This document shows positions 6,095-60,843 of a stretch of 64,000 bases of DNA, in pieces (within the stretch, counting starts at the first letter, position 1; every line of letters begins with the position of its first letter). The notes below the pieces were generated by a model, which ran no database searches, was not told where the DNA came from, and saw nothing but the letters and a program-made list of their open reading frames with translations. Made by a program: the position numbers and the translations under genes. The stretch is from Bordetella genomosp. 5. Lineage in GTDB: Bacteria > Pseudomonadota > Gammaproteobacteria > Burkholderiales > Burkholderiaceae_B. The DNA lies in contig NZ_NEVN01000004.1 of NCBI RefSeq assembly GCF_002261475.1, positions 434,001 to 498,000 on the forward strand. Direction: 5' to 3'.

Positions 6095-6145
6095 GCGCGC
6101 GATGTGGCTACACTTGCGCTTTCGTCAATCATGCAGGATGCCGTC

Positions 6146-7241: not shown

Positions 7242-7334
7242 CGTTTCGTTGGGGACAGGGTCTCGGGACTTTCCCTTAAACCCGTGCAAAACCTGGGATT
7301 TAGCCATTGTGACCATTGACGGCCATTTTGTCAT

Positions 7335-7352
7335 ATTTGAGAATTCTCATAT
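7335..7352. promoter_or_regulatory. Palindromic operator between XRE regulator and FAD oxidase
   Basis: TGAGAATTCTCA at 7338-7349 is a perfect 12-bp palindrome, extended to 18 bp with one mismatched pair. It lies in the divergent intergenic region, 30 bp before the oxidase start. This is the expected place for autoregulation and oxidase control by the neighbouring regulator; the assignment is inference. Confidence 0.5.
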
Positions 7353-7381
7353 CCGAGAAATTAGGCAATACGAGGCCGACG

Positions 7382-8527
7382 ATGCGTGCGCAGGATTTTG
7401 ATGTGGTGATTGTGGGGGCGGGGATCGCGGGTGCGTCGCTGGCGTACCGGCTGGCCGGCCACCGGCGCGTGCTGATGCTCGAGCGCGAAAGTCAGCCGGG
7501 CTATCACTCCACCGGCCGGTCGGCCGCGATGTTCATGGAAACGTACGGCACCGCGCAGATTCAGGCCCTCACGCGTGCCAGCCGCGCCTTTTACGAGCGT
7601 CCGCCCACGGGGTTCACCGAGGCCGAGCTGCTGCACGAACGCGGCTGCCTCTACATCGCCAATGAGGAGCAGCGCGACGAGCTCGAGGCGGCAATCGTCG
7701 CTGCATCCGCGCGGGCAGCCAATGTGCGGCGCCTCACGCCCACCGAGGCGCTCGAGCGTGTGCCCTGTCTGCGCCCCGAGGCGGTTGCCGCCGGGGCGAT
7801 GTTCGAACCCGAGGCGCGCGATCTCGACGTGCACGCTCTGCATCAGGGCTTTCTGCGCGGTGCCCGACGCGCCGGTGCCGAGCTGCGCTGCAACGCCGAG
7901 CTGCGCGAAGCCCAGTGGGCCGACAGTGGCTGGGTGCTGCGCCTGAGCGACGGCTCGACCGCGAGCGCGCCGCTGCTGGTCAACGCGGCCGGTGCGTGGG
8001 CCGACGAGGTGGCGGCGCTCTGCGGCGTTCAGCCCGTGGGTCTGCAGCCGTGCCGTCGCAGCGCGTTCACGTTTGCCGCGCCCGAGGGCGCCGAGATCGC
8101 GGCCTGGCCGGCGGTCGTCGGCATCGACGAGAGCTTTTACTTCAAGCCCGACGCGGGTCAGCTGCTGGGCTCGCCGGCCAATGCCGACCCGGTGGCGCCT
8201 CACGATGTGGTGGCCGAGGAGCTCGACGTGGCCACCGGCATTTACCACATCGAGACCGCCACCACCCTGGCCATCCGCCGTCCCTCGCACGTGTGGGCGG
8301 GGTTGCGCTCGTTCGTGGCCGACGGCGATCTGGTCATCGGCTACGACGACGTACAGCCCGGCTTCTTCTGGCTGGCGGCGCAGGGCGGCTACGGCATTCA
8401 GTCGGCCGCCGGGGTGTCCGAACTGGCGAGCGGCCTGGTGCTGGGCGATGGCCTGTCCGACGCGCTGGCTCGCGAAGGGGTGAACCCCGATCTGCTGCGA
8501 CCCGCCCGGTTGCGCGCCGGTCACTGA
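7382..8527 (+). CDS. DAO-family FAD-dependent oxidoreductase
   Basis: A 381-residue flavoenzyme of the D-amino acid/glycine oxidase superfamily. The dinucleotide-binding motif is at the N-terminus (VVIVGAGIAGASLAYRLAG), followed by LLERES-like ribose contact LMLERESQPG. The C-terminal FAD contact is GFFWLAAQGGYGIQSAAG. It probably oxidises an amino or hydroxy acid; the substrate is not readable. The ATG at 7382 follows GAGG; upstream residues of the longer frame look non-coding. It is divergent from an XRE-cupin regulator, and a Bug binding protein and a hydrolase follow on the same strand, which could form one uptake and oxidation unit. Confidence 0.85.
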   Translation: MRAQDFDVVIVGAGIAGASLAYRLAGHRRVLMLERESQPGYHSTGRSAAMFMETYGTAQIQALTRASRAFYERPPTGFTEAELLHERGCLYIANEEQRDELEAAIVAASARAANVRRLTPTEALERVPCLRPEAVAAGAMFEPEARDLDVHALHQGFLRGARRAGAELRCNAELREAQWADSGWVLRLSDGSTASAPLLVNAAGAWADEVAALCGVQPVGLQPCRRSAFTFAAPEGAEIAAWPAVVGIDESFYFKPDAGQLLGSPANADPVAPHDVVAEELDVATGIYHIETATTLAIRRPSHVWAGLRSFVADGDLVIGYDDVQPGFFWLAAQGGYGIQSAAGVSELASGLVLGDGLSDALAREGVNPDLLRPARLRAGH

Positions 8528-8599
8528 GCCACGTCGGCAGGCCGCGTCGCGGCACTGCCCACCACTTCTGCAGCATCCATGAACAACAAGGGGAACACC

Positions 8600-9580
8600 A
8601 TGTTCAAGCAACGCAGCAAGTTCATCGCGGCCGGCGCCGCGATCGGCCTGGTCATGGCGGGCGGCGCCGCGCAGGCCGCCGGTTACCCCGAGCGGCCGAT
8701 CCAGCTGGTCGTGCCGTATCCGCCGGGCGGCGCGGGCGACGTGCTGGGCCGCATCCTCGCAAAACGGCTGGGACAGGAGCTCAATCAGACCATCATCGTG
8801 GAAAACCGCGCGGGCGCGGGCACGATCCTCGGCGCGCAGTATGTGGCCAAGGCCCCTCGCGATGGGTACACGCTGCTGATGAGCTCCGGCACCACGTTCA
8901 CGGTCAATCCTGCCGTCTACGACAAGCTGCCTTACGATCCCGCCAAGGATTTCCAGCCGGTGGGCATGGTGGGCCGCGCGGCGCTCGTCCTGGTGGCCAA
9001 CGCCAACGAGCCGTACTCCGACGTCAAAGGACTGGTTGCGGCGGCAAACAAGGTTGGCGACAAGTTTTCCTATGGCTCGTTCGGCATCGGCACGGTCTCG
9101 CACTTCGCCGGCGAGATGTTCCAGGAAGCCGCCGGCACGCGCATGACGCACATTCCGTACAAGGGCAGCTCGCCGGCCATGACCGACCTCATCGGCGGAC
9201 AGATTCCGATCCTGTTCGACACTGTCGTGGCGGCACTGCCGCAGATCAAGTCGGGCAAGATCAAGGCGCTCGCGGTCACGACCGCGCAGCGTTCCAGCTT
9301 CCTGCCCGACGTGCCCACGGTGGCCGAATCCGGCTATCCCGATGTGGCCATGGATACCTGGATCGCGGTCTTCACGCCCCGCGGCACGCCGCCCGAGGTG
9401 GTGAGCAAGCTGGACCGCGCGATCGCCGCCGCGCTGGCCGACAAGGACACGCGCGCGCAGTTGCAGGCCACGGGTTTCGAAGCCACGCCGATGGATGGCG
9501 CCGGCGTCGCATCGGTGATCGCTCAAGAAACGCCGCGCTTCGCCGAGATCGCCAGACGCGCCGGCATCAAGGCGCAATAA
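8600..9580 (+). CDS. Bug/TctC-family periplasmic binding protein
   Basis: A 326-residue tripartite-tricarboxylate-type solute receptor. It has a signal peptide (basic FKQRSK, hydrophobic core, AQAA cleavage region) and the family hallmarks YPERPIQLVVPYPPGGAGD and the ligand-loop region MTHIPYKGSSPAMTDLIGG. The start at 8600 has AAGGGG six bases upstream; an ATG at 8579 would include that site in the coding sequence. No TctA/TctB membrane genes are nearby, as is usual for the many orphan Bug receptors of this order. The ligand is unknown, probably a carboxylate. Confidence 0.9.
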   Translation: MFKQRSKFIAAGAAIGLVMAGGAAQAAGYPERPIQLVVPYPPGGAGDVLGRILAKRLGQELNQTIIVENRAGAGTILGAQYVAKAPRDGYTLLMSSGTTFTVNPAVYDKLPYDPAKDFQPVGMVGRAALVLVANANEPYSDVKGLVAAANKVGDKFSYGSFGIGTVSHFAGEMFQEAAGTRMTHIPYKGSSPAMTDLIGGQIPILFDTVVAALPQIKSGKIKALAVTTAQRSSFLPDVPTVAESGYPDVAMDTWIAVFTPRGTPPEVVSKLDRAIAAALADKDTRAQLQATGFEATPMDGAGVASVIAQETPRFAEIARRAGIKAQ

Positions 9581-9717
9581 AGCACGCGGGCGGACGTCGG
9601 GGTGTCCGGTATCCGCCGGCGCCCACTCCGCAAGCCTGGCCGCGGCGGTAAGATGCCTGCGGTATGCCGCCCGCGCCGCCACTTCCGGTGGCGCGTGCCG
9701 CGCGCACAGGAGCCCCC

Positions 9718-10662
9718 ATGTCGCTGGATCCCCGCCTGGAAGTCGTCACCTGCGTAAGCCCCATGGGCTTTCATCGGATGGCTTATTGGGAGTGGGGCGA
9801 TCCGTCCAACCGCGACGTGCTGCTGTGCGTGCACGGCCTCACGCGCAACGGGCGCGACTTCGACCGCCTGGCCCGGCGGCTGGCGGATCGCTTTCGGGTG
9901 ATCTGCCCCGACGTCGCGGGCCGCGGCCAATCCGACTGGCTGGCAAGTCCGGCGCTCTACAACGTGCCGCAATACGTGTCCGACATGATGACGCTGATCG
10001 CGCGGGTCAACCCCGCGCGCCTGTCGTGGGTCGGCACATCGATGGGCGGCCTGATCGGCCTGGGGCTGACCGGCGCGCTGGCGTTTGCCCGCGCCGCCCA
10101 CGCGGCGCATCCGCACGCCGGTGCGTTGCCGGCCGAGCGCGACATCCGCATCGACCGCATGGTGCTCAACGACGTGGGCCCGCGCCTCGCGCAGCCGGCC
10201 CTCGACCGCATCATCGGCGGCGTGGGCACGTCTGCGTCGTTCGCCACCTTCGACGAAGCCGTCGCCGCCACCCGCATCGCGTGCGCCGCCTACGGGCCGC
10301 ACACCGACGACGAGTGGCGCGAGCTCGCAGAGCATGGCTATGTGCGCGACGGCGAAGGGCGCTGGGTCCGGGCCTACGATCCCGCCATTTCCGCCACCCT
10401 GGCTTTGCAGGCGGGGTCTCAGGCCGGCGCGCAGGCCTATGCCGAGGGCGAGCGCTTGTTGTGGCACGCCTACGACGCGCTGGATTGCCCGGTGCTGATC
10501 CTGCGCGGCCAGCACTCCGACCTGCTCACCTCCGACACCGCCCAGGAGATGCTGGCGCGCAACCCGCGTGCCCGTCTGCTCGAGGTGCCCGAGGCCGGGC
10601 ATGCGCCCACGCTCATGAGCGACGCGCAGATCGCGCCGGTCGAGGCGTTCCTGCGGGGCTGA
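9718..10662 (+). CDS. Alpha/beta hydrolase
   Basis: A 314-residue alpha/beta-fold hydrolase. An AGGAG site precedes the ATG. The oxyanion region is LLCVHGLTRNGRDFD, the nucleophile elbow is WVGTSMGGLIG (Ser in G-T-S-M-G), an Asp is expected near LRGQHSDLLT and the catalytic His lies in EAGHAPTLM. This pattern fits an esterase or C-C bond hydrolase. It lies after the Bug gene with a 137-bp gap, so co-transcription is possible but not certain. Confidence 0.85.
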   Translation: MSLDPRLEVVTCVSPMGFHRMAYWEWGDPSNRDVLLCVHGLTRNGRDFDRLARRLADRFRVICPDVAGRGQSDWLASPALYNVPQYVSDMMTLIARVNPARLSWVGTSMGGLIGLGLTGALAFARAAHAAHPHAGALPAERDIRIDRMVLNDVGPRLAQPALDRIIGGVGTSASFATFDEAVAATRIACAAYGPHTDDEWRELAEHGYVRDGEGRWVRAYDPAISATLALQAGSQAGAQAYAEGERLLWHAYDALDCPVLILRGQHSDLLTSDTAQEMLARNPRARLLEVPEAGHAPTLMSDAQIAPVEAFLRG

Positions 10663-10753
10663 GAGGGGCCGGCGAGCGGCCCGGGGGACGGGGCCAGCGG
10701 CCCGCGCGGCCGCCGCGCTCGCCTCCCGCCGCGCAGGCTCCTACAATAGGTGC

Positions 10754-11599
10754 ATGACTGCTGCCCAACTCAACATCGATCTGCATTGCCATTCCACGGT
10801 TTCCGACGGCGCCATGGCGCCGGCCGACGTGGCCAGGCGTGCGCGCGCCAACGGCGTCGATGTCTGGGCCCTCACGGATCACGACGAAGTCGGCGGCATT
10901 GCCGAGGCGCGCCGCGCGGCCGAGGCGCTGGGCCTGCGATATCTCACGGGCGCCGAGATTTCGGTCACCTGGAGCAAGGTCACGGTGCATATCGTCGGCC
11001 TCAATTTCGACGAAACCAACCCCGGCCTGGTCGAGGGCCTGCGCCACACGCGCGCGGGCCGGGCGGGCCGCGCCAAGCAGATCGGCGAGCGGCTGGCCGC
11101 GATGGGCATGCCGGGCGCCTACGAGGGCGCGTTGCCGTATGCCGGCAACCCCGAACTGATCAGCCGCACGCACTTTGCGCGCTATCTGGTGGACGCCGGC
11201 TTCTGCCCCGACGTGCAGACCGTCTTCAACAAGTATCTCGGCGACGACTGCGCGGGCCATGTGCCCATGCAGTGGGCAACGCTGGCCGAGGCGGTGGGCT
11301 GGATCCGGGGCGCGGGCGGCCGCGCCGTGATCGCGCATCCCGGCCGCTACAAGTACACGCCGGTGCAGTTCGCGGCGCTGTTCGACGAATTCCTGCAGCT
11401 GGGCGGCGAGGGCATCGAGGTGGTCACCGGCAGCCATACCGCCGATGAGGCCCGCCAGTATGCGCAGGTCGCGCGTCACTATGGCTTTCTGGCCTCGCGC
11501 GGCTCCGATTTTCACCGGTTGGGCGAGAGCAAGGCCGATCTCGGCAGCCTGCCCAACCTGCCTCCCGATCTCAAGCCGGTCTGGCACGACTGGCTCTGA
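10754..11599 (+). CDS. PHP-domain phosphoesterase (nucleoside 3',5'-bisphosphate phosphatase / RNase AM type)
   Basis: A 281-residue PHP-domain metal-dependent phosphoesterase. The metal-binding motifs are INIDLHCHSTVSDG-like at the N-terminus (DLHCHSTVSDG), WALTDHDEVGG, VIAHPGRYK and SRGSDFHRLG. Homologues act on 3',5'-nucleotides or trim RNA 5' ends (YciV/Rnm type). A TACAAT -10-like box ends only seven bases before the ATG, so the transcript may start at the A of the start codon. greB follows in the same direction after 54 bp. Confidence 0.85.
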   Translation: MTAAQLNIDLHCHSTVSDGAMAPADVARRARANGVDVWALTDHDEVGGIAEARRAAEALGLRYLTGAEISVTWSKVTVHIVGLNFDETNPGLVEGLRHTRAGRAGRAKQIGERLAAMGMPGAYEGALPYAGNPELISRTHFARYLVDAGFCPDVQTVFNKYLGDDCAGHVPMQWATLAEAVGWIRGAGGRAVIAHPGRYKYTPVQFAALFDEFLQLGGEGIEVVTGSHTADEARQYAQVARHYGFLASRGSDFHRLGESKADLGSLPNLPPDLKPVWHDWL

Positions 11600-11653
11600 A
11601 CGAACCCCGGCCGGCGCGCGCATGCGATCCGGCCACGTCACATTCAATCGCGT

Positions 11654-12214
11654 ATGAACAAGGCTTTTGTCAAAGAGTCGGACAACGACGACGACGATGA
11701 TCTGCCCGAGGCCCAGGCACTGCCCAAGGGCACGCGCAACTACATGACGCCCGAGGGCTATCACCGGCTGCGCGACGAGCTCGCGCATCTGATGAACGTG
11801 GAGCGTCCGTCGGTGGTGCAGATCGTGTCCTGGGCGGCGTCCAACGGCGACCGCTCGGAAAACGGCGATTATCTGTATGGCAAGAAGCGCCTGCGCGAGA
11901 TCGATCGTCGCATGCGCTTTCTGACCAAACGGCTCGATGTGGCCGAGGTGGTCGACGCGGCCTCGCAGCCCAACCGCGATCAGGTGTTTTTCGGCGCCAC
12001 CGTGCACTACTCCGACCAGGATGGCGAGGAGTACACCGTCACCATCGTGGGGGTCGACGAGGCGGAGCCGCTGGCGGGCAAGATCAGCTGGATCTCGCCG
12101 GTGGCGCGCGCCCTCACCAAGGCGCGCGAGGGCGAGACCGTGGTGCTGCGCACGCCGGGCGGCGTGCAGGAGCTCGATATCCTCGAGGTGCGCTACCCCG
12201 AGCCCAAAGACTGA
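11654..12214 (+). CDS. greB: Transcription elongation factor GreB
   Basis: GreB stimulates the transcript cleavage activity of backtracked RNA polymerase. The 186-residue protein has the N-terminal coiled coil (YMTPEGYHRLRDELAHLMN) with the acidic tip region NGDRSENGDYLYGKKRLREI, and the C-terminal FKBP-like domain ending in LDILEVRYPEP. The N-terminal acidic extension (SDNDDDDDLPEAQ) is longer than in E. coli GreB. It is convergent with the TRAP transporter operon. Confidence 0.93.
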   Translation: MNKAFVKESDNDDDDDLPEAQALPKGTRNYMTPEGYHRLRDELAHLMNVERPSVVQIVSWAASNGDRSENGDYLYGKKRLREIDRRMRFLTKRLDVAEVVDAASQPNRDQVFFGATVHYSDQDGEEYTVTIVGVDEAEPLAGKISWISPVARALTKAREGETVVLRTPGGVQELDILEVRYPEPKD

Positions 12215-12416: not shown

Positions 12417-13442
12417 TTATTTCTTGCGTGCGGCGATGGACTTCTCGGCCATCGTGACCAGGTCTTCGCCGATGGTCTTCTTCCACTTGTCGTAAACGGG
12501 CTTGGTGGCGGCGACGAAGGCGGCATGCTGGCCCGCGTCGAGCGAGGTCACGGTCACGCCAAAGCCGGAAATCTCTTTCAGCAGCGAGGGATCCTCGGGC
12601 GTCACGCCTTTGCGGGCGATCTGGATTTCCTGCTTGCCCGCGTCCAGCGCGGCCTGGCGCACGATCTCGCGATCCTTCTCGCTCCACGAGTTCCACACGT
12701 CGCGGTTGACCACGAAGATGAGCGGGTCGGCCACGTAATTCCAGAGCGTCAGGTACTTCTGGCCCACGGTGTAGAGCTTGGAGCCGGTGTAGATCGACAG
12801 CGGATTTTCCTGGCCGTCGACGGCGCCGCTGGCGAGCGCGGGTTGCGCATCGGCCCAGCTCATCTGGGTGGGGTTGGCGCCCAGCGCGGTGAAGGTGTCG
12901 ATGTACAGCGGCGAGCCCACCACGCGCAGCTTCATGCCCTTCATGTCGGAAGGCTGCTTGATCTCACGCTTGGAGTTGCTCAGCTGGCGATAGCCGTTTT
13001 CGCCCCAGGCCAGCGGCACGACGCCGGCCTTCTCGATGTGCTTGAACATCTCCTTGCCCACCTCGCCCTGCACCAGCGCGTCGATCGCGGCGTAGTCGGG
13101 CATCAGGAAGGGCAGCGAGAAGAGGTTGAGCTGTTTGACCTGCGGCGACCAATTGATCGTCGAACCCACGGCCATGTCGATCACGCCCTGGCGAATGGCG
13201 GTGAACTCGCGCGTCTGGTCGCCCTGGACCAGCGAGGTACCCGGATAGACCTTGATGTTGATGCGGCCATCGGTGCGCTCGCGCACCAGTTTGGACCAGA
13301 TCTCGGCGCCCTGGCCCCACGGGAACGAGGTGCCCACCACGATGGAGAGCTTGTATTCGGCCTTGTAGTTTTGCGCATGCGCCGGCGCGGTGAGGGCGGC
13401 GGCGCCGCAGGCCAGCGCGGCGAGCAACAGACGGATCTTCAT
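12417..13442 (-). CDS. dctP: TRAP transporter solute receptor, DctP family
   Basis: A 341-residue periplasmic receptor with a clear signal peptide (MKIRLLLAALACGAAALTAP, cleavage after AHAQ). Family features include GTSFPWGQGAEIWSKLV, the conserved arginine region MKGMKLRVVGSPLYID that binds the carboxylate of the ligand, and the DAQPALASGAVDGQENPL segment. It is the last gene of a three-gene minus-strand TRAP operon, 69 bp after dctM, with a good GGAGGAGAA ribosome binding site. The substrate is likely an organic acid. Confidence 0.93.
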   Translation of the reverse strand: MKIRLLLAALACGAAALTAPAHAQNYKAEYKLSIVVGTSFPWGQGAEIWSKLVRERTDGRINIKVYPGTSLVQGDQTREFTAIRQGVIDMAVGSTINWSPQVKQLNLFSLPFLMPDYAAIDALVQGEVGKEMFKHIEKAGVVPLAWGENGYRQLSNSKREIKQPSDMKGMKLRVVGSPLYIDTFTALGANPTQMSWADAQPALASGAVDGQENPLSIYTGSKLYTVGQKYLTLWNYVADPLIFVVNRDVWNSWSEKDREIVRQAALDAGKQEIQIARKGVTPEDPSLLKEISGFGVTVTSLDAGQHAAFVAATKPVYDKWKKTIGEDLVTMAEKSIAARKK

Positions 13443-49874: not shown

Positions 49875-51467
49875 ATGCACCAACGCATCCTCATCCTCGA
49901 CTACGGTTCGCAAGTCACGCAACTGATCGCACGCCGTGTGCGCGAGGCTGGCGTCTATTCCGAAATCCATGCGGGCGACGTCGACGACGCCTTCATCCGT
50001 GAGCAAGCAGCTCAGGGCCTGAAGGGCATCATCTTGTCGGGCAGCCACGCCTCGGCCTACGAAGAAGGCTCGATGCGCGTGCCGCACGCCGTATTCGAAC
50101 TGGGCCTGCCGGTGCTGGGCATCTGCTACGGCATGCAAGCCATGGCGCAGCAGCTCGGCGGCGTCGTGAGCTTCTCCGACCACCGCGAATTCGGCTACGC
50201 CGAAGTGCGCGCCCACGGCCACACCAAGCTGCTCAACGGCCTGTCGGACTTCACGACCGAAGAAAGCCACGGCATGCTCAAGGTCTGGATGAGCCACGGC
50301 GACAAGGTCACCGAACTGCCGCCCGGCTTCGTGCTGATGGCCTCCACGCCGTCCTGCCCGATCGCCGGCATGGCCGACGAAGCCCGCGGCTTCTACGCCG
50401 TGCAGTTCCACCCCGAAGTCACGCACACCGTGCAGGGCAAGGCCATGCTGTCGCGCTTCGTGCGCGAGATCTGCGGCTGCGAGGGCGACTGGAACATGCC
50501 CGACTACATCTCCGAAGCCGTGGCGCGCATCCGCGAGCAGGTGGGCGACGATGAAGTCATCCTGGGCCTTTCCGGCGGCGTGGACAGCTCGGTTGCGGCC
50601 GCGCTGATCCACCGCGCCATCGGCGACAAGCTCACCTGCGTGTTCGTCGACCACGGCCTGCTGCGCCTGAACGAAGGCGTGCAGGTCATGGAGACCTTCG
50701 CCGAAAACATGGGCGTGAAGATCATTCACGTCGATGCCACCGACCAGTTCATGGGCAAGCTCGCGGGCCAGTCGGACCCCGAAGCCAAGCGCAAGATCAT
50801 CGGCCGCGAGTTCGTCGAAGTCTTCCAGGAACAAGCCGGCAAGCTCAAGACCGCCAAGTGGCTGGCCCAGGGCACGATCTACCCCGACGTGATCGAATCG
50901 GCCGGCGCCAAGACCGGCAAGGCCACCTCGATCAAGTCGCACCACAACGTGGGCGGCCTGCCCGACACGCTCAACCTGAGCCTGCTCGAGCCGCTGCGCG
51001 AACTGTTCAAGGACGAAGTCCGCGAACTCGGCGTCGCCCTCGGCCTGCCGCCGCAGATGGTCTACCGCCACCCGTTCCCCGGCCCCGGCCTGGGCGTGCG
51101 CATCCTCGGTGAAGTGAAGCACGAATACGCCGAACTCCTGCGCCGCGCCGACGCGATCTTCATCGAAGAGCTGCGCAACACCAAGGACAGCGCCTCGGGC
51201 CTGAGCTGGTACGAGCTCACCTCCCAAGCCTTCGCCGTCTTCCTCCCGGTCAAGTCCGTGGGCGTGATGGGCGACGGCCGCACCTACGAATACGTCGTAG
51301 CCCTGCGCGCCGTGCAAACCTTCGACTTCATGACGGCCGATTGGGCCCCGCTGCCGCACCCGCTGCTGGCGCGTGTGTCTTCGCGCATCATCAACGAAGT
51401 GCGGGGGATCAACCGTGTCGTGTACGACGTCTCGAGCAAGCCGCCGGCGACTATTGAGTGGGAGTGA
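49875..51467 (+). CDS. guaA: GMP synthase (glutamine-hydrolysing)
   Basis: XMP to GMP. The 530-residue enzyme has an N-terminal class I glutaminase (nucleophile in [19 protein letters not shown], His/Glu in [11 protein letters not shown]), an ATP pyrophosphatase domain with the P-loop [15 protein letters not shown], and the C-terminal dimerisation domain ending [16 protein letters not shown]. The reading frame is intact although an integrative element has entered at the last codons, so the element restores the 3' end. Confidence 0.97.
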
Positions 51468-51473
51468 TCCCGC
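51456..51473. mobile_element. attL of the guaA-integrated element
   Basis: The last codons of guaA (GAGTGGGAGTGATCCCGC) are a known insertion target of tyrosine integrases. The core GGAGTGATC, with CGC one base later, recurs at 59018-59030. The integrase gene begins about 300 bp inside. The match is short, so the exact crossover is uncertain. Confidence 0.6.
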
Positions 51474-51513
51474 GTCTGGCACGGCCAGGCACCTGATGGC
51501 ATAAAAAGCCGCT

Positions 51514-51539: not shown

Positions 51540-51645
51540 GCATTTGATGTCTGGCACGATCTGGCAACTTTAGGAAGCGCCAAGCACTGTTTGAGCATGG
51601 CATTAAAGCCGGTACTATCCGTTGATGATCCCATGATTAATGCCG

Positions 51646-51749
51646 ATACCATGCTGCATTTTTTTATGCGTTCATGGTATCAAAATTTTATAAGCTGTTG
51701 TTTTGTATAGAAAAAACGATGGAAATTTGGCGTTTTTTTAGCATGGTAT
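51646..51749. repeat. Left arm-site cluster (CATGGTAT x3)
   Basis: ATACCATG at 51646-51653 (inverted) and CATGGTAT at 51673-51680 and 51742-51749 lie between attL and the integrase start, in AT-rich DNA. Their recurrence near attR makes them good candidates for arm-type integrase binding sites. Confidence 0.55.
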
Positions 51750-51773: not shown

Positions 51774-52961
51774 ATGCTGACCGATACCAAGCTGAGAAAT
51801 CTCAAGCCCAGGGACAAGCTCTACAAGGTGAATGACCGAGAAGGTCTCTATGTGGCCGTGACTCCAGCCGGTTCCATCTCGTTCCGTTACAACTACTCAA
51901 TCAACGGACGGCAAGAGACCATCACCTTTGGCCGTTATGGCGTTGGCGGCATCACGCTGGCCGAAGCCCGTGAGCAGTTGGGTGACGCCAAGAAGATGGT
52001 CGCGGCGGGCAAATCCCCGGCCAAGGAGAAAGCCCGAGACAAGGCGCGGGTCAAGGATGCAGAGACGTTCGGTGCCTGGGCGGAGAAGTGGCTGCGCGGC
52101 TACCAGATGGCCGACTCCACCCGCGATATGCGCCGTTCGGTCTATGAGCGCGAGCTGAAGCCCAAATTCAGCAATCAGAAGCTGGTGGAGATCACCCATG
52201 AGGACTTGCGGGCGCTGACTGATGCGATCGTCGAGCGAGGGGCACCGGCGACTGCCGTTCATGTGCGTGAAATCGTTATGCAGGTGTTTCGCTGGGCAAT
52301 TGAGCGAGGGCAGAAGGTCGAAAACCCGGCGGAGCTGGTGCGACCAACCAGCATCGCTCGATTCGAGCCACGCGACCGAGCGCTGACACCAGAAGAAATC
52401 GGGTTGATGTATCAGTACATGGAGCGGGTGGGTACAAGCCCAACAAACCGTGCAGCGGCCAAGCTGCTGTTGCTGACGATGGTGCGTAAAAGCGAGCTGA
52501 CTAACGCCACCTGGAGTGAAATCAGTTTCAGTGAAGCGCTTTGGACTATTCCGAAGGAAAGGATGAGGCGGCGCAATCCGCACCTGGTGTTCTTATCCCA
52601 GCAGGCGCTGGATATTTTCATTGCCCTGAAAACCTTTGCCGGTGGTTCTGACTTCGTTTTGCCATCACGATATGACTCGGATGCGCCAATGAGCAGTGCA
52701 ACACTCAACCAGGTGCTGACGCTGACATACAAAGCGGCGCAGAAAGATGGAAAGTCGCTTACCAAGTTTGGGCCACATGATTTGCGGCGTACAGCTAGCA
52801 CGCTGCTGCATGAGGCAGGCTACAACACTGACTGGATTGAGAAGTGCCTGGCGCACGAGCAGAAGGGTGTCAGAGCCGTCTACAACAAGGCTGAATACCG
52901 TGAGCAGCGGGCGGCGATGTTGCAGGATTGGGCGAATATGATTGATGAGTGGACTGCGTGA
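51774..52961 (+). CDS. int: Tyrosine recombinase/integrase (P4-type)
   Basis: A 395-residue integrase. It has the N-terminal DUF4102 arm-binding domain (LTDTKLRNLKPRDKLYKVND, SFRYNYSINGRQETITFGRY), a SAM-like core-binding domain and a C-terminal catalytic domain. Catalytic residues can be placed: Arg in MVRKSELTNATW, His-x-x-Arg in GPHDLRRTASTLL, His in CLAHEQKG and the Tyr nucleophile in VYNKAEYREQR. AAGGGGG precedes the ATG. It reads away from guaA into the element. No excisionase gene was seen. Confidence 0.93.
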   Translation: MLTDTKLRNLKPRDKLYKVNDREGLYVAVTPAGSISFRYNYSINGRQETITFGRYGVGGITLAEAREQLGDAKKMVAAGKSPAKEKARDKARVKDAETFGAWAEKWLRGYQMADSTRDMRRSVYERELKPKFSNQKLVEITHEDLRALTDAIVERGAPATAVHVREIVMQVFRWAIERGQKVENPAELVRPTSIARFEPRDRALTPEEIGLMYQYMERVGTSPTNRAAAKLLLLTMVRKSELTNATWSEISFSEALWTIPKERMRRRNPHLVFLSQQALDIFIALKTFAGGSDFVLPSRYDSDAPMSSATLNQVLTLTYKAAQKDGKSLTKFGPHDLRRTASTLLHEAGYNTDWIEKCLAHEQKGVRAVYNKAEYREQRAAMLQDWANMIDEWTA

Positions 52962-53065: not shown

Positions 53066-54259
53066 ATGGTGAATAACGAGCTTTTAGATGCGCTCCGCTA
53101 CAGAAGTGAAGGCACAGATTTGGACTTTAAAAGTGAGCAATATCGTTTCGCAGGAGGCAACGATTTTCAAAAAGCAGAGTTGCTGAAAGACATTCTGGCT
53201 ATGGCAAATGCGTGGCGTGATGGGGCGGGATACATCTTGCTTGGTCTTCAGGACAACCGACCCCACCTAGCTGAGGTAGTGGGTATCTCAGAGAGTATTG
53301 ATGACTCCAGATTGCAACAATTTATTAATAGTAAAGTTAAGCCAAAGTTGACATTTCGCTACGAAGAGCACTTATATGAAGGCAAGACCGTTGGGGTCAT
53401 TGTTATCCCAAAACAAAAACGTCCGTTTTTTATTGCGAACCCCTACGGAAAGTTGAAGAGCAATGTGGCCTATGTTCGCCGTGGAAGTAGTACAGAGGAG
53501 GCGGAGCCAACGGAAGTCGCAGCCATGGCATTGGCAGATTCGGGGCGTGGACGGGTGCTGTTGGACCTTTCCGTGCTCACACCTAAAAATGAGATTCTGC
53601 CTGAATGCATCGCTCTGAAGTATTTTAATTTCCCTGAGAAATTACCTGATTACGAAAGTCCATCCGAGAAGTCGGGGCCGTTTGAAATTTCGATTCGCAA
53701 TCATATGTGGCACGACAATAGGGACTTTTGGCGGGAATATGCGGAATATGCTCGCGTTAATGCGGCCCTTATCGAAATTAAGTTTTTACTGACGAATAAT
53801 TCAGAGATGTCATTGTCGAACGCCAAGTTGGAGGTTTCGGTGAATCCTCTAGACGGACAGTCTTGCCAGATGAGAGCTGGCATAGATCTGCCAGACGAAC
53901 CGAGTAGTCAATGGAGTTCCATATCGGGCTTGCGTAGCTTGCCGGACATTCTCGACCGGCGGGAAGCCCGTCTTATCGTCGACGAAGACGGTGTGCATCC
54001 CATCTGTCACGTTCAATTCGGCTCATTGCTTCCTGGCGAAGAGGGGCGTTCGTCAGACACCCTAGCTATTTTGCCGTCTGGACCGGGAAAACTACAGTTA
54101 CGCTTTCGTATCCTAGCCGGTGAGCTCGCCGTACCCCAAGAATCAGAGCGTTTCCTGGAAATAACAGGAGAGTCGGTGTCCCTCAATGTCGCCGACCTCG
54201 ATGAGATGCACGGTCGAGCTTTAATAGCCAGATACCAAGCGGAGCATGGAGAAGAGTAA
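53066..54259 (+). CDS. AlbA_2 (Schlafen-type) domain protein
   Basis: A 397-residue protein. Residues 1-150 match the AlbA_2/Schlafen fold: EGTDLDFKSEQYRF (acidic nuclease-like start), KAELLKDILAMANAWRDGAG, YILLGLQDNR and the late IPKQKRPFFI and VAYVRRGSST. Proteins with this domain bind nucleic acid and are frequent in prokaryotic defence loci. Residues 150-397 are beta-rich and unrecognised. A GAGGTGAT site precedes the ATG. GC is clearly lower than the backbone. Role as nuclease, regulator or defence sensor cannot be told apart. Confidence 0.75.
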   Translation: MVNNELLDALRYRSEGTDLDFKSEQYRFAGGNDFQKAELLKDILAMANAWRDGAGYILLGLQDNRPHLAEVVGISESIDDSRLQQFINSKVKPKLTFRYEEHLYEGKTVGVIVIPKQKRPFFIANPYGKLKSNVAYVRRGSSTEEAEPTEVAAMALADSGRGRVLLDLSVLTPKNEILPECIALKYFNFPEKLPDYESPSEKSGPFEISIRNHMWHDNRDFWREYAEYARVNAALIEIKFLLTNNSEMSLSNAKLEVSVNPLDGQSCQMRAGIDLPDEPSSQWSSISGLRSLPDILDRREARLIVDEDGVHPICHVQFGSLLPGEEGRSSDTLAILPSGPGKLQLRFRILAGELAVPQESERFLEITGESVSLNVADLDEMHGRALIARYQAEHGEE

Positions 54260-54568: not shown

Positions 54569-55468
54569 ATGCTATCTGATTTTTGGAGCTTGCTACTAAG
54601 TGTGGCCGTTTCTACGGGTTTAATAGGCGCTATTGCATATTTTCTGCGTGATGCTTTGGGCGGTTTTTTTGCGAAAGCTATTGAGCATCGATTTGAGAGA
54701 AAGTTAGAAAAATTTAAAGCAGATATTCGTAATAATGAGAAAGAGCTAGAGCAAATTAGATCATTTCTCGTATCTTCTCGCAGAGAGCGGGACTCCGCAA
54801 TCCAATCCAGACGGTTGGAAGCGGCAGAAATGTTACTGCGTGCACGTCACGCTCTTGCCCAGTTGGCGATGCTTGTTGAGTATATGAAGGTTCTCAATAC
54901 AGAGCAGATACTCAATGAGGCGGCGGACCCAAAGATAGCCGAGTTTGTTGATCTTCTTGTGAAGCCATTCGATATTGATGAGAAACTCAAGCAGCTTGGA
55001 TGCATCGATAAAACTTATCCACGACTATATCTTAGTGAAAAGTCATTGAAAGCTTTTGATGCGTATGAAAGTATCATTCTAAATGCTGTGATGATGATGA
55101 AGTTTTTTGCTATAAATTTGCCTAAAAAGGGCCGCTTTATTAAGGAGAGCAACTTAAGTAAAACAATAATTGAGTTGGTTCCGTCCTCAAAGGAAGGGTT
55201 TGAGAAATTTGGTGAGGGTTATGCATATCACTGGGCAACTTATTTTCACGATGAAATATTGCGGGCGCTTCGCCACGAAATATCTGGTGCCGATGACATG
55301 GCGCGGGATGCTGAATCTGCTGAACGTTTAGTGATGGATTCTCGTCGCGCGCAGATGAATATCGCCGCTTCGTTGGAGCAAGTGGGTTTACCTGATACTC
55401 TGATCAAACCTGATGAAAACGCTATCCGGAGCGCGGCCGTTGCTGAAAATGCGCAGGATAACGGTTGA
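54569..55468 (+). CDS. Membrane-anchored coiled-coil protein of unknown function
   Basis: A 299-residue protein. One membrane helix is near the N-terminus (LLLSVAVSTGLIGAIAYFL), followed by a charged coiled coil (residues 35-80, FERKLEKFKADIRNNEKELE) and a helical cytoplasmic domain. I do not recognise a named family. GAGGGATATAC lies before the ATG. It has the lowest GC of any gene in the window. Single-helix anchored helical proteins in such islands are often effectors or sensors of defence systems; here that is only an inference from context. Confidence 0.65.
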   Translation: MLSDFWSLLLSVAVSTGLIGAIAYFLRDALGGFFAKAIEHRFERKLEKFKADIRNNEKELEQIRSFLVSSRRERDSAIQSRRLEAAEMLLRARHALAQLAMLVEYMKVLNTEQILNEAADPKIAEFVDLLVKPFDIDEKLKQLGCIDKTYPRLYLSEKSLKAFDAYESIILNAVMMMKFFAINLPKKGRFIKESNLSKTIIELVPSSKEGFEKFGEGYAYHWATYFHDEILRALRHEISGADDMARDAESAERLVMDSRRAQMNIAASLEQVGLPDTLIKPDENAIRSAAVAENAQDNG

Positions 55469-55590: not shown

Positions 55591-55648
55591 CATGGTATTT
55601 TTTATGACATGAAGTGAACGCTCAAGTGAATGCGTTACCGATACCATG
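55591..55648. repeat. Internal att-like cluster
   Basis: CATGGTAT at 55591-55598 (as GCATGGTATTT, 11 bases shared with the right end of the element at 58993) and inverted ATACCATG at 55641-55648 (as CCGATACCATG, 11 bases shared with the left end at 51643). So a right-end-like element is followed directly by a left-end-like one, as expected where two integrated elements meet. The remaining 55469-55759 has no gene. Confidence 0.5.
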
Positions 55649-55759
55649 TCAGGTCATAGTGAATGTCAGTGCCAGAATTCTCATTCCTACCTGAATGGCA
55701 TCTGATGAAGAATTAGACGCCAATCGAAAAAAAGCGGTTGCATAAACAAGGGGAGCGCA

Positions 55760-57484
55760 ATGCCTTGGGGTATTACAGAACACATCAACCACCTGCAAAA
55801 GCTGCTAGTTCCTGGTGCCATCGGCAACTACAATAGCTTCGAGGTAACGGAGATATTTGGCCTCCACGAAGACAGACCGGGGCACATAACGAACTTCATG
55901 AGCCTCCTGGTTGCAGAGCCAAGTGACCCGCCAGTAGGCTCTCCTACCAAGCCAGGCATACTCAATGGCAAGAAGCGCATTGAGTTGCGTGAAACACCAT
56001 GGAAGTTCGGCATCGCGCGCTATCGGGTGTCTACGCAACAAGTTCTACAGGCGCTTCAGAATTTCAGCACCACTGGTGAGTGGAAGCCTGGCGTTTCAGC
56101 ATTGGAAGTCGGCTCGCTTATGCCGATTCCACCACAATTTGTGCCTGCTGACACAGCGCTTCCACACCCATGGAACGGTGTTCTCAAGAATAACTTCTGG
56201 GAAGGCTCCCATGTCCTTGAGCTTTTCGATGGTTTGAAAACAGATGTGAAATTTCTCTTGGATGAGCCAAAGCTTCTCAAGCAACTGGCAGCGGACCTAA
56301 GGCCCTTCGTAAAGATGGGCATTGATGGTCTGTCTGACCGGCTTGGAAATGTTCTCATCCAACTGCCCGTGACCGTCGTGACGACAAAGGTTTCAAGCTC
56401 CCAAAACGGGGATTTTCTTGTACAGCCCATCTGGCACAGCGCCACGCCTGCGCGACGGCTAAGAGTGTCATGTGAGAAGTATGAAGACACAACCGTGGAG
56501 GGATACGGCTCCGAAGATGTCACTGGTTCACTGGCGAATTTCCCGCTTCACTCACCCGGAGGCGGAGCCCGATACGTTCTATGGGATGACCAGAATCAAT
56601 TAGTGCTTGGCGCATCCGCGCAAACTTCGTTCATTACGAGCATCAGCATGAACGTCCATGTTGTAGGGGAAAGCATCAGCACCCGGAATTTCTATCTTCC
56701 ATCGCCAAATGGGGAACTGGAGTCGGTATCCGTTCCGCTCATTGAAGAACGATCTCCAAACATTATCGGAACCCCAACAGCCAATCCGCGTGAGCCATGG
56801 CGGGAAAACAGAGTCTTTAGAGATAGCCTAAAGAGCATCCGGGAGCGGAAGGAATTCATTCAGTACGGAGGGAACTCGGGCGCCGGAACGAACGATGCAT
56901 TCAAGGACATTCGCGCACTACTTCGAATGCATGGCAGGACTGGTGCATGGTTGTGGGACCCATATCTTGATGCGAAAGACGTTCTTGCTACGCTCTTCCA
57001 CTGCCCATACAAAGGTGCTGACTTGCGCGCACTCACGGCTGGCGCGGAACCTCCGGTGGCAAAGGATAAGGAAAAGTTATCCGAAGCCGTCGCTTTTTGC
57101 CAAAGAGTTGAGATATGGCTTCGCAGTCACCCCCTTGCAGGCAGGGTAGGGTTGAAGCCACAGTCTGCACCGCCTCCCAAACAATCTTGGCAAGATAAAC
57201 AAGTTGAGACCTTCATGAACTTGAAGGGCAACTGCAAAGACCTGCGGTTAGAGTTCCGCATACGCGAAGGCAGCGCTGGCTGGCCGTTTCATGACCGTTT
57301 TTTGATTTTCCCCTCTGACTTCGGGCCGGCAACAGCGTGGTCCCTTGGAACATCGGTCAACAGTTTTGGCCAGAAGCACCACATCCTTCAAAAGGTCGCC
57401 GATGGCGAGCTGATTCGGCAAGCGTTTCTGGACCTTTGGGACGAACTGAGCGGTAGCGACTATCTCGTATGGAGCACGCCATGA
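55760..57484 (+). CDS. VPA1262-like protein with C-terminal phospholipase-D-like motif
   Basis: A 574-residue protein with an AAGGGGAG ribosome binding site. The N-terminal 330 residues resemble, from memory, an uncharacterised family annotated as VPA1262 N-terminal domain; I am moderately sure of the name and make no claim about its function. The C-terminal part shows a PLD-like pattern: LWDPYLDAKDVLATLFHC, then FHDRFLIFPSDFG and WSLGTSVNSFG, where H-D-R and G-T-S-V-N stand for the usual HxK and GxxN, with Arg for Lys. Only one such half-site is visible, so a dimer would be needed. No signal peptide or membrane helix. Translation is coupled to the next gene by ATGA. Confidence 0.7.
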   Translation: MPWGITEHINHLQKLLVPGAIGNYNSFEVTEIFGLHEDRPGHITNFMSLLVAEPSDPPVGSPTKPGILNGKKRIELRETPWKFGIARYRVSTQQVLQALQNFSTTGEWKPGVSALEVGSLMPIPPQFVPADTALPHPWNGVLKNNFWEGSHVLELFDGLKTDVKFLLDEPKLLKQLAADLRPFVKMGIDGLSDRLGNVLIQLPVTVVTTKVSSSQNGDFLVQPIWHSATPARRLRVSCEKYEDTTVEGYGSEDVTGSLANFPLHSPGGGARYVLWDDQNQLVLGASAQTSFITSISMNVHVVGESISTRNFYLPSPNGELESVSVPLIEERSPNIIGTPTANPREPWRENRVFRDSLKSIRERKEFIQYGGNSGAGTNDAFKDIRALLRMHGRTGAWLWDPYLDAKDVLATLFHCPYKGADLRALTAGAEPPVAKDKEKLSEAVAFCQRVEIWLRSHPLAGRVGLKPQSAPPPKQSWQDKQVETFMNLKGNCKDLRLEFRIREGSAGWPFHDRFLIFPSDFGPATAWSLGTSVNSFGQKHHILQKVADGELIRQAFLDLWDELSGSDYLVWSTP

Positions 57485-58899
57485 ACCCGGCTGCATTGAG
57501 CCTTGCCCAGGCCCGCTTCCAAGCTGCCCTGACCCCGGGTGCCTCCACGGCTCCGTTTGCCCTGAGCCAATTACTTGCTCAACTCAGCACGGACTCTCAG
57601 TCGCCAGCCGTTGACGCCGAAACTATCGGCCACAGCACTGGCGACGAGTTCCCATTTCTACCCTACATGTATGCAATGGGGACACCTCCTGATGCTGCTG
57701 CATCTGCAGCATGGGAGGCAGCAATACGGTGGTTGCTGAGTGCATTGCGCAACTGGGATGCCAGCGACGCAAATTCGCTCAACCAGCTTCGCGCGCTGCT
57801 TGGTGCCATAATGGCACTAGATGCAAACCTGGCAGGGCTCTCCAGTGTTGCCACTCAAGTCGCGTCAAGCCACCTGATTGCGGGGTTACGGCACCTCATA
57901 GAGCGCACCGACGTAGGCCCTGGGTTCAATGAGCAGCGATTTCCAGAACTCCGTCAGCAAATAGAATCCTTGGCCAGCAGTGGCAACCTTGAGCGGTTGT
58001 GGTACATGGTCCCGCACATGAACATCTTTCCGTCGCCAGATTTTTGGGCAGCAGTAGTAATCATGTACAACGCCGAACCTGCTGAGCTTGCTGCCATTAT
58101 TGAGAGGCGAAATGACGTTCTTTTTTCGCTCATGATTTGCAGCGTGCTCGGCACGCAAGCCATAGTCCTGGCATCCAGGGTTAATAACCTAGTTTTCAAA
58201 TTCGTTAGTGTTGAAAATTCGTGGCAAGACCGCTCGGCCGGCCCCAGCCAAAGCACCCAGAGCACGCTGCAGGCTTTGCTGCTTCAAGTTGCACATACGT
58301 CTGCCGCAGACTGGGCTGCGTGGATGCAAGCGATGTTCAAGGCTCCTGGTCACAACCCATCCCTGGATGCCGCCTTAGGGGAGGTACTTCAACAACTGTC
58401 CCAAGCGCATTGGACAGCATTCTTCAAGGCGCTTTCGCTCAATTACTCACACCGAGCAGCAGCGCCAGTTGCAAATATCCTTATCCCTCTGGCAAAGTCG
58501 CCCGACGCGGGGGGGAAGGCTTTGATATGGGCCGCCGCTCATCAAGTCTGGTCTGACTGGGGCTACGGCAAGCATGAAAGCGATAGCGCAATGTTTGCCC
58601 CTGCCGCCTGCGCCTTAGACTTTCCCGTGGCCATGTATTACGCATCAATGCAAAGCGACGAGCGTTCAACAGAGGAAAGCAAGCTACATGAAGCCATCGA
58701 GACGGTGGAACAAGAATGGTTTAACTCCGTCACGGAGTTGGTGACCGAGAGAAACAGGCTCAAATCCCGTCTACGCCTTGTGCAGCATGGGACTGCACTG
58801 GTAAATGGGAGTGACCAGGCGCTGCCGCCCCCGATTCAGCCGGATGCGGACCGTTACGCCGAGACAAGGTATCACTACCATGACGTGAATATCTTTTGA
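57481..58899 (+). CDS. Orphan partner protein, 472 aa, coupled to the PLD-like protein
   Basis: A protein of 472 residues from the ATG at 57481, which overlaps the upstream stop in ATGA; an in-frame ATG at 57469 would add four residues. I do not recognise it. It is mostly alpha-helical, alanine-rich and lacks a signal peptide; a hydrophobic stretch (DVLFSLMICSVLGTQAIVLA) may be a buried helix. The C-terminal 90 residues contain a coiled coil (LHEAIETVEQEWFNSVTELV, then TERNRLKSRLRL). The tight coupling implies a fixed stoichiometry with the PLD-like protein, for example sensor or inhibitor plus nuclease. Confidence 0.65.
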   Translation: MNPAALSLAQARFQAALTPGASTAPFALSQLLAQLSTDSQSPAVDAETIGHSTGDEFPFLPYMYAMGTPPDAAASAAWEAAIRWLLSALRNWDASDANSLNQLRALLGAIMALDANLAGLSSVATQVASSHLIAGLRHLIERTDVGPGFNEQRFPELRQQIESLASSGNLERLWYMVPHMNIFPSPDFWAAVVIMYNAEPAELAAIIERRNDVLFSLMICSVLGTQAIVLASRVNNLVFKFVSVENSWQDRSAGPSQSTQSTLQALLLQVAHTSAADWAAWMQAMFKAPGHNPSLDAALGEVLQQLSQAHWTAFFKALSLNYSHRAAAPVANILIPLAKSPDAGGKALIWAAAHQVWSDWGYGKHESDSAMFAPAACALDFPVAMYYASMQSDERSTEESKLHEAIETVEQEWFNSVTELVTERNRLKSRLRLVQHGTALVNGSDQALPPPIQPDADRYAETRYHYHDVNIF

Positions 58900-58916
58900 A
58901 CCGCTTTTGAGTAGTC

Positions 58917-58935
58917 GCTCTTTCCGGCAAAGAGC
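58917..58935 (+). terminator. Hairpin after the two-gene cassette
   Basis: GCTCTTT and AAAGAGC form a 7-bp stem with a CCGGC loop, 17 bp after the stop codon. There is no clear T-run, so termination is uncertain. Confidence 0.35.
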
Positions 58936-58993
58936 CTCAGTCGATGAGGAGATGATGTGCTACTTAAGGTGGTGCTGACGTTAATATTCCGAG

Positions 58994-59013
58994 CATGGTA
59001 TTTCACATGGTAT
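58994..59013. repeat. Right arm-site pair (CATGGTAT x2)
   Basis: CATGGTAT occurs at 58994-59001 and 59006-59013, a 12-bp period, immediately inside the attR-like core. The same octamer is clustered at the left end of the element. Confidence 0.55.
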
Positions 59014-59017
59014 GGGT

Positions 59018-59030
59018 GGAGTGATCTCGC
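59018..59030. mobile_element. attR of the guaA-integrated element
   Basis: GGAGTGATCTCGC matches the guaA end (GGAGTGATCCCGC) with one difference. A strong terminator follows at once, as would be expected of the original DNA downstream of guaA. Confidence 0.55.
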
Positions 59031-59045
59031 TTGAGGTAGCTGGGT

Positions 59046-59077
59046 AAAACAAAAGGCGCTTTGGCGCCTTTTGTTTT
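59046..59077 (+). terminator. Terminator beyond attR (original guaA terminator candidate)
   Basis: AAAACAAAAGGCGC and GCGCCTTTTGTTTT form a long perfect stem around TTTG, usable in both directions. A near copy stands at 61254-61285. From here to 59237 I see no gene. Confidence 0.85.
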
Positions 59078-59237
59078 GGGTGGTGGTTGGGTGAACGTGC
59101 GCTCCCAACTTGTCGTTGCCGTTGAGGCAGCATGAGGGCCGGGCGATCCGGAGAGGTCCGCCTTAAGAAATGCGCCGCCCGCCGGGCCTTTACAAAGAAT
59201 CAGAAGGCCGCGTCGGAATTTAGATAAATTGCTATTG

Positions 59238-59302: not shown

Positions 59303-59319
59303 TCGTAGTATGGCTACGA
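59303..59319. promoter_or_regulatory. AbiEi operator, copy 2, over the start codon
   Basis: TCGTAG-TATGG-CTACGA repeats the palindrome, with the ATG start codon inside its spacer. Centres of the two copies are 65 bp apart. AbiEi antitoxins are known to repress their operon by binding two inverted repeats, which fits. Confidence 0.75.
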
Positions 59320-60047
59320 CTGAAACCACCAAACTAAAAGCCCTTTACACCCGATTGGTGCCGGGTGCGCCCCTGGTTTCAGAGGACTTGGCGTCGCTGG
59401 GCATTTCGGCAGACCTGGCCGTTCATTACGTCAGGGCGGGGTGGCTCACTCGTTTGGCGCGCGGCGTCTACGCCCGCCCAAGCGATGCCCTCGCTCTGCA
59501 TCCTTGCCTGTCGCTGTTGGAGCGCAGGTTTGAAGGCTTGCATGTCGGTGGCAAGTCGGCGCTCGACTGGTATGGCGTGCGCCAGTACGTTTCGCAGCAG
59601 CCCGTGCTGCAGCTGTACGGCTGGACTGCAGCCCGCCTGCCGGAGTGGTTTACCCAACGCTTTCCGGCCGAGTACCATCGCAAGCGCCTGTTCGACGAGA
59701 CGCCAGATGCATTACTGCAGGTCAGCCTGTTCGAGAAGCGCAGCGGGGCGCCGCAAGTCTCCACGCCGGAGCGCGCCCTGCTGGAGCTTTTGAGCGAGGT
59801 CGGTGTGCGTCAGCCCCTGCAAGAGGCCCGCGAACTCGTGGAGAACGCCTACGGCCTTCGTGCTGACGTTTTGCGCGAACTGCTGCAACGCTGTACCAGC
59901 GTCAAGACAGTACGGCTGTGCCTGCAGCTCGGCCGAGAGGGCGCATTGCCTTGGGCAGAAAAGCTCGACCCGGGCATGCTGCCAACGGGCAGCGACCGGC
60001 CGTGGGTGTCCAGATCGCCTGACGGCCTGTTGGTACTCAAGGCATGA
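59310..60047 (+). CDS. abiEi: AbiEi-type antitoxin of a type IV toxin-antitoxin system
   Basis: A 245-residue AbiEi protein. The N-terminal winged helix (SEDLASLGISADLAVHYVRA, WLTRLARGVYARP) binds the operator; the C-terminal domain (GGKSALDWYGVRQYV, TPERALLELLSEVG) antagonises the toxin. The length is normal and the frame intact. It overlaps the toxin gene by 4 bp. Because the toxin gene is truncated, this gene may persist only as a repressor. Confidence 0.87.
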   Translation: MATTETTKLKALYTRLVPGAPLVSEDLASLGISADLAVHYVRAGWLTRLARGVYARPSDALALHPCLSLLERRFEGLHVGGKSALDWYGVRQYVSQQPVLQLYGWTAARLPEWFTQRFPAEYHRKRLFDETPDALLQVSLFEKRSGAPQVSTPERALLELLSEVGVRQPLQEARELVENAYGLRADVLRELLQRCTSVKTVRLCLQLGREGALPWAEKLDPGMLPTGSDRPWVSRSPDGLLVLKA

Positions 60048-60508
60048 ACCCGCTTTATCTCGACACCGCGCGCCTGCTGACGCAACTCGCTCCGCTGGTG
60101 TTCGTGGACGACACCTTCGCATTGAAGGGCGGTACGGCAATCAATTTGTTCGTGCGCGACATGCCGCGCTTGTCGGTGGACCTCGATCTGGTTTTCCCCG
60201 ATCACACGCTCTCCCGCGACACGGCGCTGGGCCGCATCAACACCGCTATTAGAGAGGCTGCCGAGCGCCTGAAAAAGCGAGGATTCCAAACGCATGCTCC
60301 GGCGGCGGCATCGGGCGAGACCAAGTTGCTAGTGCGCCGCGGCTCGATACAGGTCAAGATCGAAGCCAACTTCGTGATGCGAGGCACCGTGCAACCGGTG
60401 CGTCGTGCTCCGCTCACGCCGACCGCTCGCGACCTGCTGATGGCCGATCCGTTTGGTGATAGGCGCATGACCCGAAAACCCGATTCAGCAGACAATAGGC
60501 GCTTCTAA
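60044..60508 (+). pseudogene. abiEii: Truncated AbiEii toxin (nucleotidyltransferase)
   Basis: The 154-residue product keeps the first half of an AbiEii nucleotidyltransferase: FALKGGTAINLFV, the catalytic-type DLDLVF motif (SVDLDLVFPDH) and the segment up to ARDLLMAD. The rest is replaced by an unrelated tail (PFGDRRMTRKPDSADNRRF). Complete family members are roughly 100 residues longer and carry the helical C-terminal half needed for activity. Two ATAGGCGC repeats, 36 bp apart (60459 and 60495), mark the break. I expect it to be inactive. Confidence 0.8.
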
Positions 60509-60582
60509 CGGTCGGAGCCACGGTGAAAGCCCATGTTTAGAAATTGCAGTCTGATCGTAGATCTGAATTTCAGCTAATAGCC

Positions 60583-60843
60583 ATGTCTCCGATCTCTCAT
60601 CCCGTGGTCAGCGCAGGCCAGCTCAGCGCAATGCTGCAGGCAGCGCGCAAGGCTAAAGGCTGGACCCAATCCGAGTTGGCCAGTCGCGTCGGTCTTAGCC
60701 AATCGCGCATCTCTCATCTGGAGCTCAACGCACACGAGTTGAGCGTGGAGCAGCTGCTCGCCTGGTGTGGCGCGTTGGGTCTGGAAGTCGTCATCGGCAA
60801 TCGCGCCGCCGGGGCGCGCGCCGACTCCGCCACGGACTGGTGA
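60583..60843 (+). CDS. hipB: HipB-like antitoxin, XRE family
   Basis: An 86-residue DNA-binding protein from the ATG at 60583. The HTH is AGQLSAMLQAARKAKGWTQS followed by ELASRVGLSQSRISHLELN. The C-terminal part (LSVEQLLAWCGALGLEVVIG) is the dimerising beta strand typical of HipB. A GTG start for the hipA remnant lies one base after its stop. The antitoxin gene appears intact while the toxin gene is not. Confidence 0.82.
   Translation: MSPISHPVVSAGQLSAMLQAARKAKGWTQSELASRVGLSQSRISHLELNAHELSVEQLLAWCGALGLEVVIGNRAAGARADSATDW

Follow-up and report, generated by a model that had tools for sequence, protein, structure and literature searches.

What is the function of two tightly coupled genes that lie behind the guanosine monophosphate synthase gene guaA of Bordetella genomosp. 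5? The pair was found in a stretch of 64,000 nucleotides (referred to here as the window; coordinates refer to it unless another locus is named, and all its features described below are on the forward strand) and consists of gene A (55760–57484, 574 amino acids) and gene B (57481–58899, 472 amino acids). An initial annotation, made from the letters alone, had presented the pair as a candidate undescribed defence system, and this reading is supported by the mobility of the genes, by their pairing and by the defence genes in their neighbourhood, from which we infer the defence role. We suggest, with about an even chance of being right, that A and B would form a two-gene mobile module against invaders, composed of an effector of the phospholipase D (PLD) type and a solenoid protein acting as sensor or regulator.

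The start of gene A is preceded by AAGGGGAG. The protein had been regarded as being without a family, but it belongs to the NCBIfam family NF040700 (VPA1262_N_dom), which is named yet uncharacterised: residues 80–562 align to positions 17–478 of the 478-position profile with 296.9 bits at a cut-off of 80. Against the full-length VPA1262 model NF040699, which describes a chain of 1026 residues and has a cut-off of 325 bits, A reaches 28 bits in one partial stretch, as compared to 973 bits for a fused relative (L035). According to the structure model and its fold matches, A is composed of an N-terminal region, a central beta-sandwich (residues about 204–287) and a C-terminal PLD half-site. The PLD-fold domain comprises residues about 376–572 (56885–57475) and carries the motifs LWDPYL (56951–56968), HDR (57290–57298) and GTSVN (57347–57361). 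The HDR … GTSVN pattern that had pointed the initial annotation to a single PLD half-site is thus present, and the fold is fairly shown by the model and the fold matches; with moderate confidence we assign the last ~190 residues to a half-site of the PLD fold in which HxK is replaced by HDR. In a Pfam profile search neither A nor 15 of its relatives matched a PLD family model. The A protein of the homologous locus L036 matches PLDc_2 with 42.5 bits (cut-off 27), and a comparison of profiles connects the group of this homologue with A at a probability of 98.9%.

The chief rival explanation starts from this same domain. It retains the defence module, and A would be a catalytically dead PLD-like protein used for binding, that is, a sensor of lipid, nucleic acid or protein, and B would either be the executioner or serve as adaptor for a further partner. 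Two observations favor it and weigh against an active effector: the canonical motif HxKxxxxDxxxxxxGSxN is not found in A, where the lysine is replaced and the aspartate is not conserved, and two of the three nearest structural matches to the model of A are chains of FAM83B, which we take to be pseudo-enzymes. Nevertheless, D400, H511, R513, G530, S532 and N534 are invariant in all 15 aligned A proteins, and the constancy of the histidine, the arginine and the GxSxN residues argues that the site is used. Moreover, only two positions of B are invariant and family profile searches recognised no domain in it, which does not suit an executioner. There is also a precedent in the BrxL-HKD nucleases, where a change from lysine to arginine is reported to give an HRD motif that was judged likely active (PMC12839542). 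We therefore consider a dead PLD domain unlikely and retain the reading of A as an effector.

The two genes share an ATGA junction, as had been proposed: the stop codon TGA of A (57482–57484) overlaps the ATG at 57481, with GGAG upstream. The longest frame of B opens 12 bases earlier, at 57469, and would give 476 amino acids; the ATG at 57481 is the likely start. B is confidently modelled as a single helical alpha-solenoid with a low-confidence tail (pLDDT, the predicted local distance difference test score, 84). The expectation of a helical protein is hereby borne out; a separate C-terminal coiled coil, also expected, is not seen in the model. Nor is B an orphan, as it has relatives with identities as low as 11%. 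In 104 of 105 pairwise comparisons A is the better conserved protein, and by this measure B is fast-evolving. An invariant half-site in A next to a diverse B suits a fixed effector with a diversifying sensor.

The following mechanism would be in keeping with these properties. A would be the effector, a PLD-fold phosphodiesterase and most likely a nuclease. As each chain has one HDR half-site, a second copy of A would pair with the first to build the active site in a dimer. B, a HEAT/ARM-like solenoid, would bind A and keep it inactive, and would have a surface that senses a product of a phage or plasmid. Upon infection B would release or position A, which would then cut nucleic acid.

The initial annotation had left to a survey of homologues whether the two genes always occur together. 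Among 21 distinct window-type loci, the window included, 18 have B adjacent to A (the window, L002–L010, L011–L015, L038, L044 and L046). Of the remaining three, L032 and L045 are cut off by the end of the contig, and L016 is an A fragment of 134 amino acids without B. Five of the 18 (L011, L013, L014, L044 and L046) were not used for building the B profile and score with E 1.5e-47 or better. All six plasmid records with a B match also hold A, and eight plasmid records have an A match. Among the 18, the A frame of L007 (7971–9617) is broken in two while B is still open, and the pair of L011 is split by an insertion sequence.

Seven more distant NF040700 loci (L035, L036, L037, L042, L072, L074 and L075) extend this picture. 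In five of these a partner of 639–701 amino acids comes after the A-like domain, and in two the domain and a partner are fused in one chain of 1052–1103 amino acids; in L036, L037 and L072 some 0.6–0.7 kb separate domain and partner. In sequence, B resembles neither the C-terminal part of VPA1262 nor those partners of 639–700 amino acids that were compared (L035, L036, L037 and L042; hhalign probability ≤0.5%). The constant feature is accordingly A with a large partner rather than A with B as such, and genes which adjoin or are fused show the pattern expected of interacting proteins. This allows a broader reading, to which we give somewhat less than an even chance: a conserved PLD effector of the HDR type with exchangeable large partners would represent a new class of immune module, in which phage products would be sensed by the partner and nucleic acid cut by the PLD chain. 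The exchangeable partners would be the solenoid B, the sequence-unrelated proteins of 639–701 amino acids and the fused C-terminal half of the VPA1262 relatives, and such a module would spread as a cargo of no more than two genes on guaA elements, satellites, prophages and plasmids.

The range of carriers is indeed wide. The pair is intact on four annotated plasmids and split by an insertion sequence (IS) on one further plasmid; in L044 it lies with integrase and DNA-primase frames in a satellite-like arrangement, which we take to be P4-like, and in L046 in a prophage with phage tail genes. A set of carriers made up of plasmids, satellite-like DNA, a prophage and integrase elements would also be expected of two coupled genes if A were a toxin and B its antitoxin and the pair served the maintenance of the element rather than defence. 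However, B is large, structured and encoded downstream, unlike common antitoxins as they are generally known. In addition, an IS630-type element separates A from B in L011, which should disturb a lethal pair; this is a weak argument, as B may still be expressed. A stabilisation pair of the toxin-antitoxin type thus appears improbable to us, and we continue with the defence module.

At the DNA level the pair is a unit of transfer, judged by the uneven identity along the compared loci. The segment 55592–59011 is 89.6% identical to positions 7832–11251 of an Onishia taeanensis record (L002), and the segment 55642–59013 is 91.7% identical to positions 7883–11254 of an Oxalobacteraceae record (L005). 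In both records the pair is again located downstream of guaA, but guaA alone is only 73.5% identical in L002, and guaA with the integrase 73.9% identical in L005, where the integrase is in two pieces. We therefore delimit the A–B transfer module, as the DNA conserved directly downstream of guaA in other bacteria, at 55592–59011. In L002 a second copy of the guaA 3′ end, 219 bases long and 74% identical to the guaA of the window, is seen 2 kb past B (13066–13284), a possible trace of a tandem insertion. In L010 the DNA directly upstream of A–B (1859–7387) contains a gene for a tyrosine recombinase, a weak match to VPA1267 and two genes of unknown kind, and it resembles an uncharacterised mobile recombinase cluster.

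The family is rare and patchily spread, as for mobile cargo. NF040700 scored above its cut-off in 5 of 398 genomes sampled from the phylum, the window's included (14 at E≤0.001). It was matched in two of 369 genomes sampled from the class at E≤1e-10, the window's among them, and in six of 345 genomes of one gammaproteobacterial order at E≤1e-20. In a comparison of the window genome with 20 relatives it was found in the window genome only. The family records span alpha-, beta-, gamma- and epsilon-proteobacteria.

Defence genes are repeatedly found near the pair. We selected 20 neighbouring frames by eye from seven loci, with no random control set, and compared them with the PADLOC models at 1e-5; ten matched, eight strongly and two weakly. 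The strong matches are GajA and GajB of Gabija in L036, a CBASS cyclase and its 4TM effector in L014, Lamassu LmuB and DRT UG36 in L015, a reverse transcriptase (RT) in L012 and the kinase candidate PDC-M71A in L006; the weak ones are PDC-S73 in L006 and LmuA in L014. At this threshold ten neighbours gave no match (three each in L006, L010 and L012 and one in L042). Five of the seven scanned loci thus have strong matches, and L010 and L042 have none. In L042 Pfam identifies the neighbour as an ATPase with tetratricopeptide (TPR) repeats, a helicase-methylase is the neighbour in L013, and the RefSeq annotation lists restriction genes in L012 and L015. Defence genes beside the pair, for which the initial annotation had proposed a survey, are seen in these loci and at the window, where an AbiE-like pair follows; we describe it as a repeated association and do not claim enrichment, as the neighbours were hand-picked and no control was drawn. 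The pair itself gave no match to the component models of PADLOC-DB 2.0.0 (best E 0.042 for A and 0.046 for B).

These observations also bear on a function of the element which is unrelated to phages, that is, a helper of recombination or mobilisation or a pair modifying membrane lipids. In favor of such a function, the module borders on the guaA target; moreover, guaA is immediately followed by the pair in L002, where the 17.7 kb examined contain no relative of the window integrase. On the other hand, the pair is present on other carriers, most of which have no relative of this integrase in the DNA examined, and it is repeatedly found near defence genes. This explanation consequently seems to us a poor prospect, and we maintain that A and B are better understood as a putative defence pair.

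In the window the pair forms the right part of a guaA-integrated element, as initially described. The order is guaA (49875–51467, a host gene into whose 3′ end the element is integrated according to the comparison with relatives), tyrosine integrase (51774–52961; PF00589, PF13356, PF22022), a Schlafen AlbA_2 protein (53066–54259; PF04326, E 9.7e-17), a 299-amino-acid protein with no family above cut-off (54569–55468), gene A and gene B, as given by frame calls and Pfam. The Schlafen protein also matches the PADLOC candidate PDC-S50 (E 7.6e-16) and could represent an additional defence gene of the element, independent of the pair. The pair has a lower guanine–cytosine content than its surroundings, as had been noted (A 0.529, B 0.558, guaA 0.655, window 0.645). 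The left attachment core (attL) lies at about 51453–51474 by comparison with relatives. The attachment pair is degenerate, since no exact repeat of at least 12 bases was found. At 59013–59030 there is a weak repeat of the guaA 3′ end (13 of 18 bases identical, equalled in 18 of 2000 shuffles), and the 63 bases at 59018–59080 match the end of guaA and the sequence just past it in a genome of the same genus (G004; L067, 498–559) to 81%. For these two reasons we place attR, the right border, at 59013–59030. In L067 a second copy of the sequence adjacent to the guaA end is found at 10196–10257, and both copies bracket an island. The 11-mer CCGATACCATG is present both by the left end of the element (51643–51653) and just inside the A–B module (55638–55648); the module may once have had its own left end, and the element may be a composite.

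Outside the element lies the AbiE-like pair (59310–60508), with an AbiEi (E 1.1e-63) and a short AbiEii (E 4e-41) by PADLOC. The AbiEii frame of 154 amino acids covers only positions 2–122 of the 290-position model and looks shortened; a helix-turn-helix-like frame follows at 60544–60843. In the relative L062 DNA matching the AbiE-like pair is found near guaA without the A–B element.

We compared eight guaA loci of the same genus and found a relative of the window integrase beside guaA in four, in one of them in pieces. Frames were listed for six loci, and ten frames from five of them were put to PADLOC. L061 carries Hachiman (HamA, HamB) and an OLD-like ATPase on the guaA side (5594–11822), L067 a 2220-amino-acid Hhe/PDC-S37 protein together with two weaker matches, and in L065 adjacent caspase-like and TIR-like genes near a guaA-linked integrase (10538–12014) are possibly a further system; in L060 and L063, with one frame tested in each, no PADLOC match was obtained. 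Three of the five guaA-side regions (L061, L067 and L065) hence have defence matches, with outer borders mapped in L067 only. These defence genes suggest that the guaA end is a defence hotspot in this genus.

If the pair is protective, this would assign a function to a protein family that has been silent apart from its name, and a small two-gene system would be at hand in which effector and sensor can be distinguished by conservation alone. The HDR half-site puts the catalytic question within reach of one point mutation.

How does the pair compare with known systems? Among its closest counterparts is the VPA1262 family (NF040700, NF040699), where a PLD-like domain is likewise coupled to a large C-terminal or downstream partner; A passes the cut-off of the N-terminal domain but fails the full-length model, and B has no sequence similarity to the C-terminal part. 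The namesake VPA1262 sits in the Vibrio parahaemolyticus island VPaI-6 and is named, in the accessible part of PMC1464126, only as an island marker gene. A full-text search for VPA1262 matched V. parahaemolyticus papers only (PMC1464126, PMC3656152). Nucleases with a single PLD half-site such as NucT differ from A, which has HDR for HxK, no conserved aspartate, an additional N-terminal region and beta-sandwich, and a solenoid partner. BfiI and Nuc are, we assume, further nucleases of this superfamily with a single half-site. Small ORF6N-PLD proteins (L024, 724–1647; L026, 1435–2319; L030, 670–1686) are sub-threshold matches to NF040700. They have a PLD-like half-site at the C-terminus: by eye L024 and L030 share with A a line HDRFLI … GAS, and L026 matches PLDc_2 weakly (E 0.034). 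Unlike A, they begin with an ORF6N domain (by Pfam in L024 and L026, by eye in L030), have about 300 amino acids and by eye keep the aspartate. The next frame in L024 and L030 is presumably related to the specificity subunit of type I restriction systems. BrxL-HKD of type 1 BREX resembles A as a defence-linked nuclease domain of the PLD type with the same lysine replacement, but it forms the C-terminal part of BrxL, which belongs to a BREX locus of several genes (PMC12839542), and A has no recognised ATPase part.

A literature search of main texts, with supplements outside its scope, found no paper on the pair, which might have been described under another name. The main text of a study on satellite hotspots, in the portion available, contains no phospholipase or VPA12 term (PMC9122126), and the DefensePredictor study, as far as shown, has no VPA or PLD term and mentions phospholipase three times, for a CBASS-like system (PMC13092281). 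In its organization the pair is reminiscent of PARIS (AriA–AriB) from the hotspots of P4 and P2, a two-gene cassette for which a fused, single-gene form is also reported (PMC9122126); its proteins, an AAA+ ATPase and a DUF4435 protein, are unrelated to A and B. Defence by a PLD effector is in itself of a known kind, and what would be new here, as far as the sequences can tell, is its combination with a solenoid partner.
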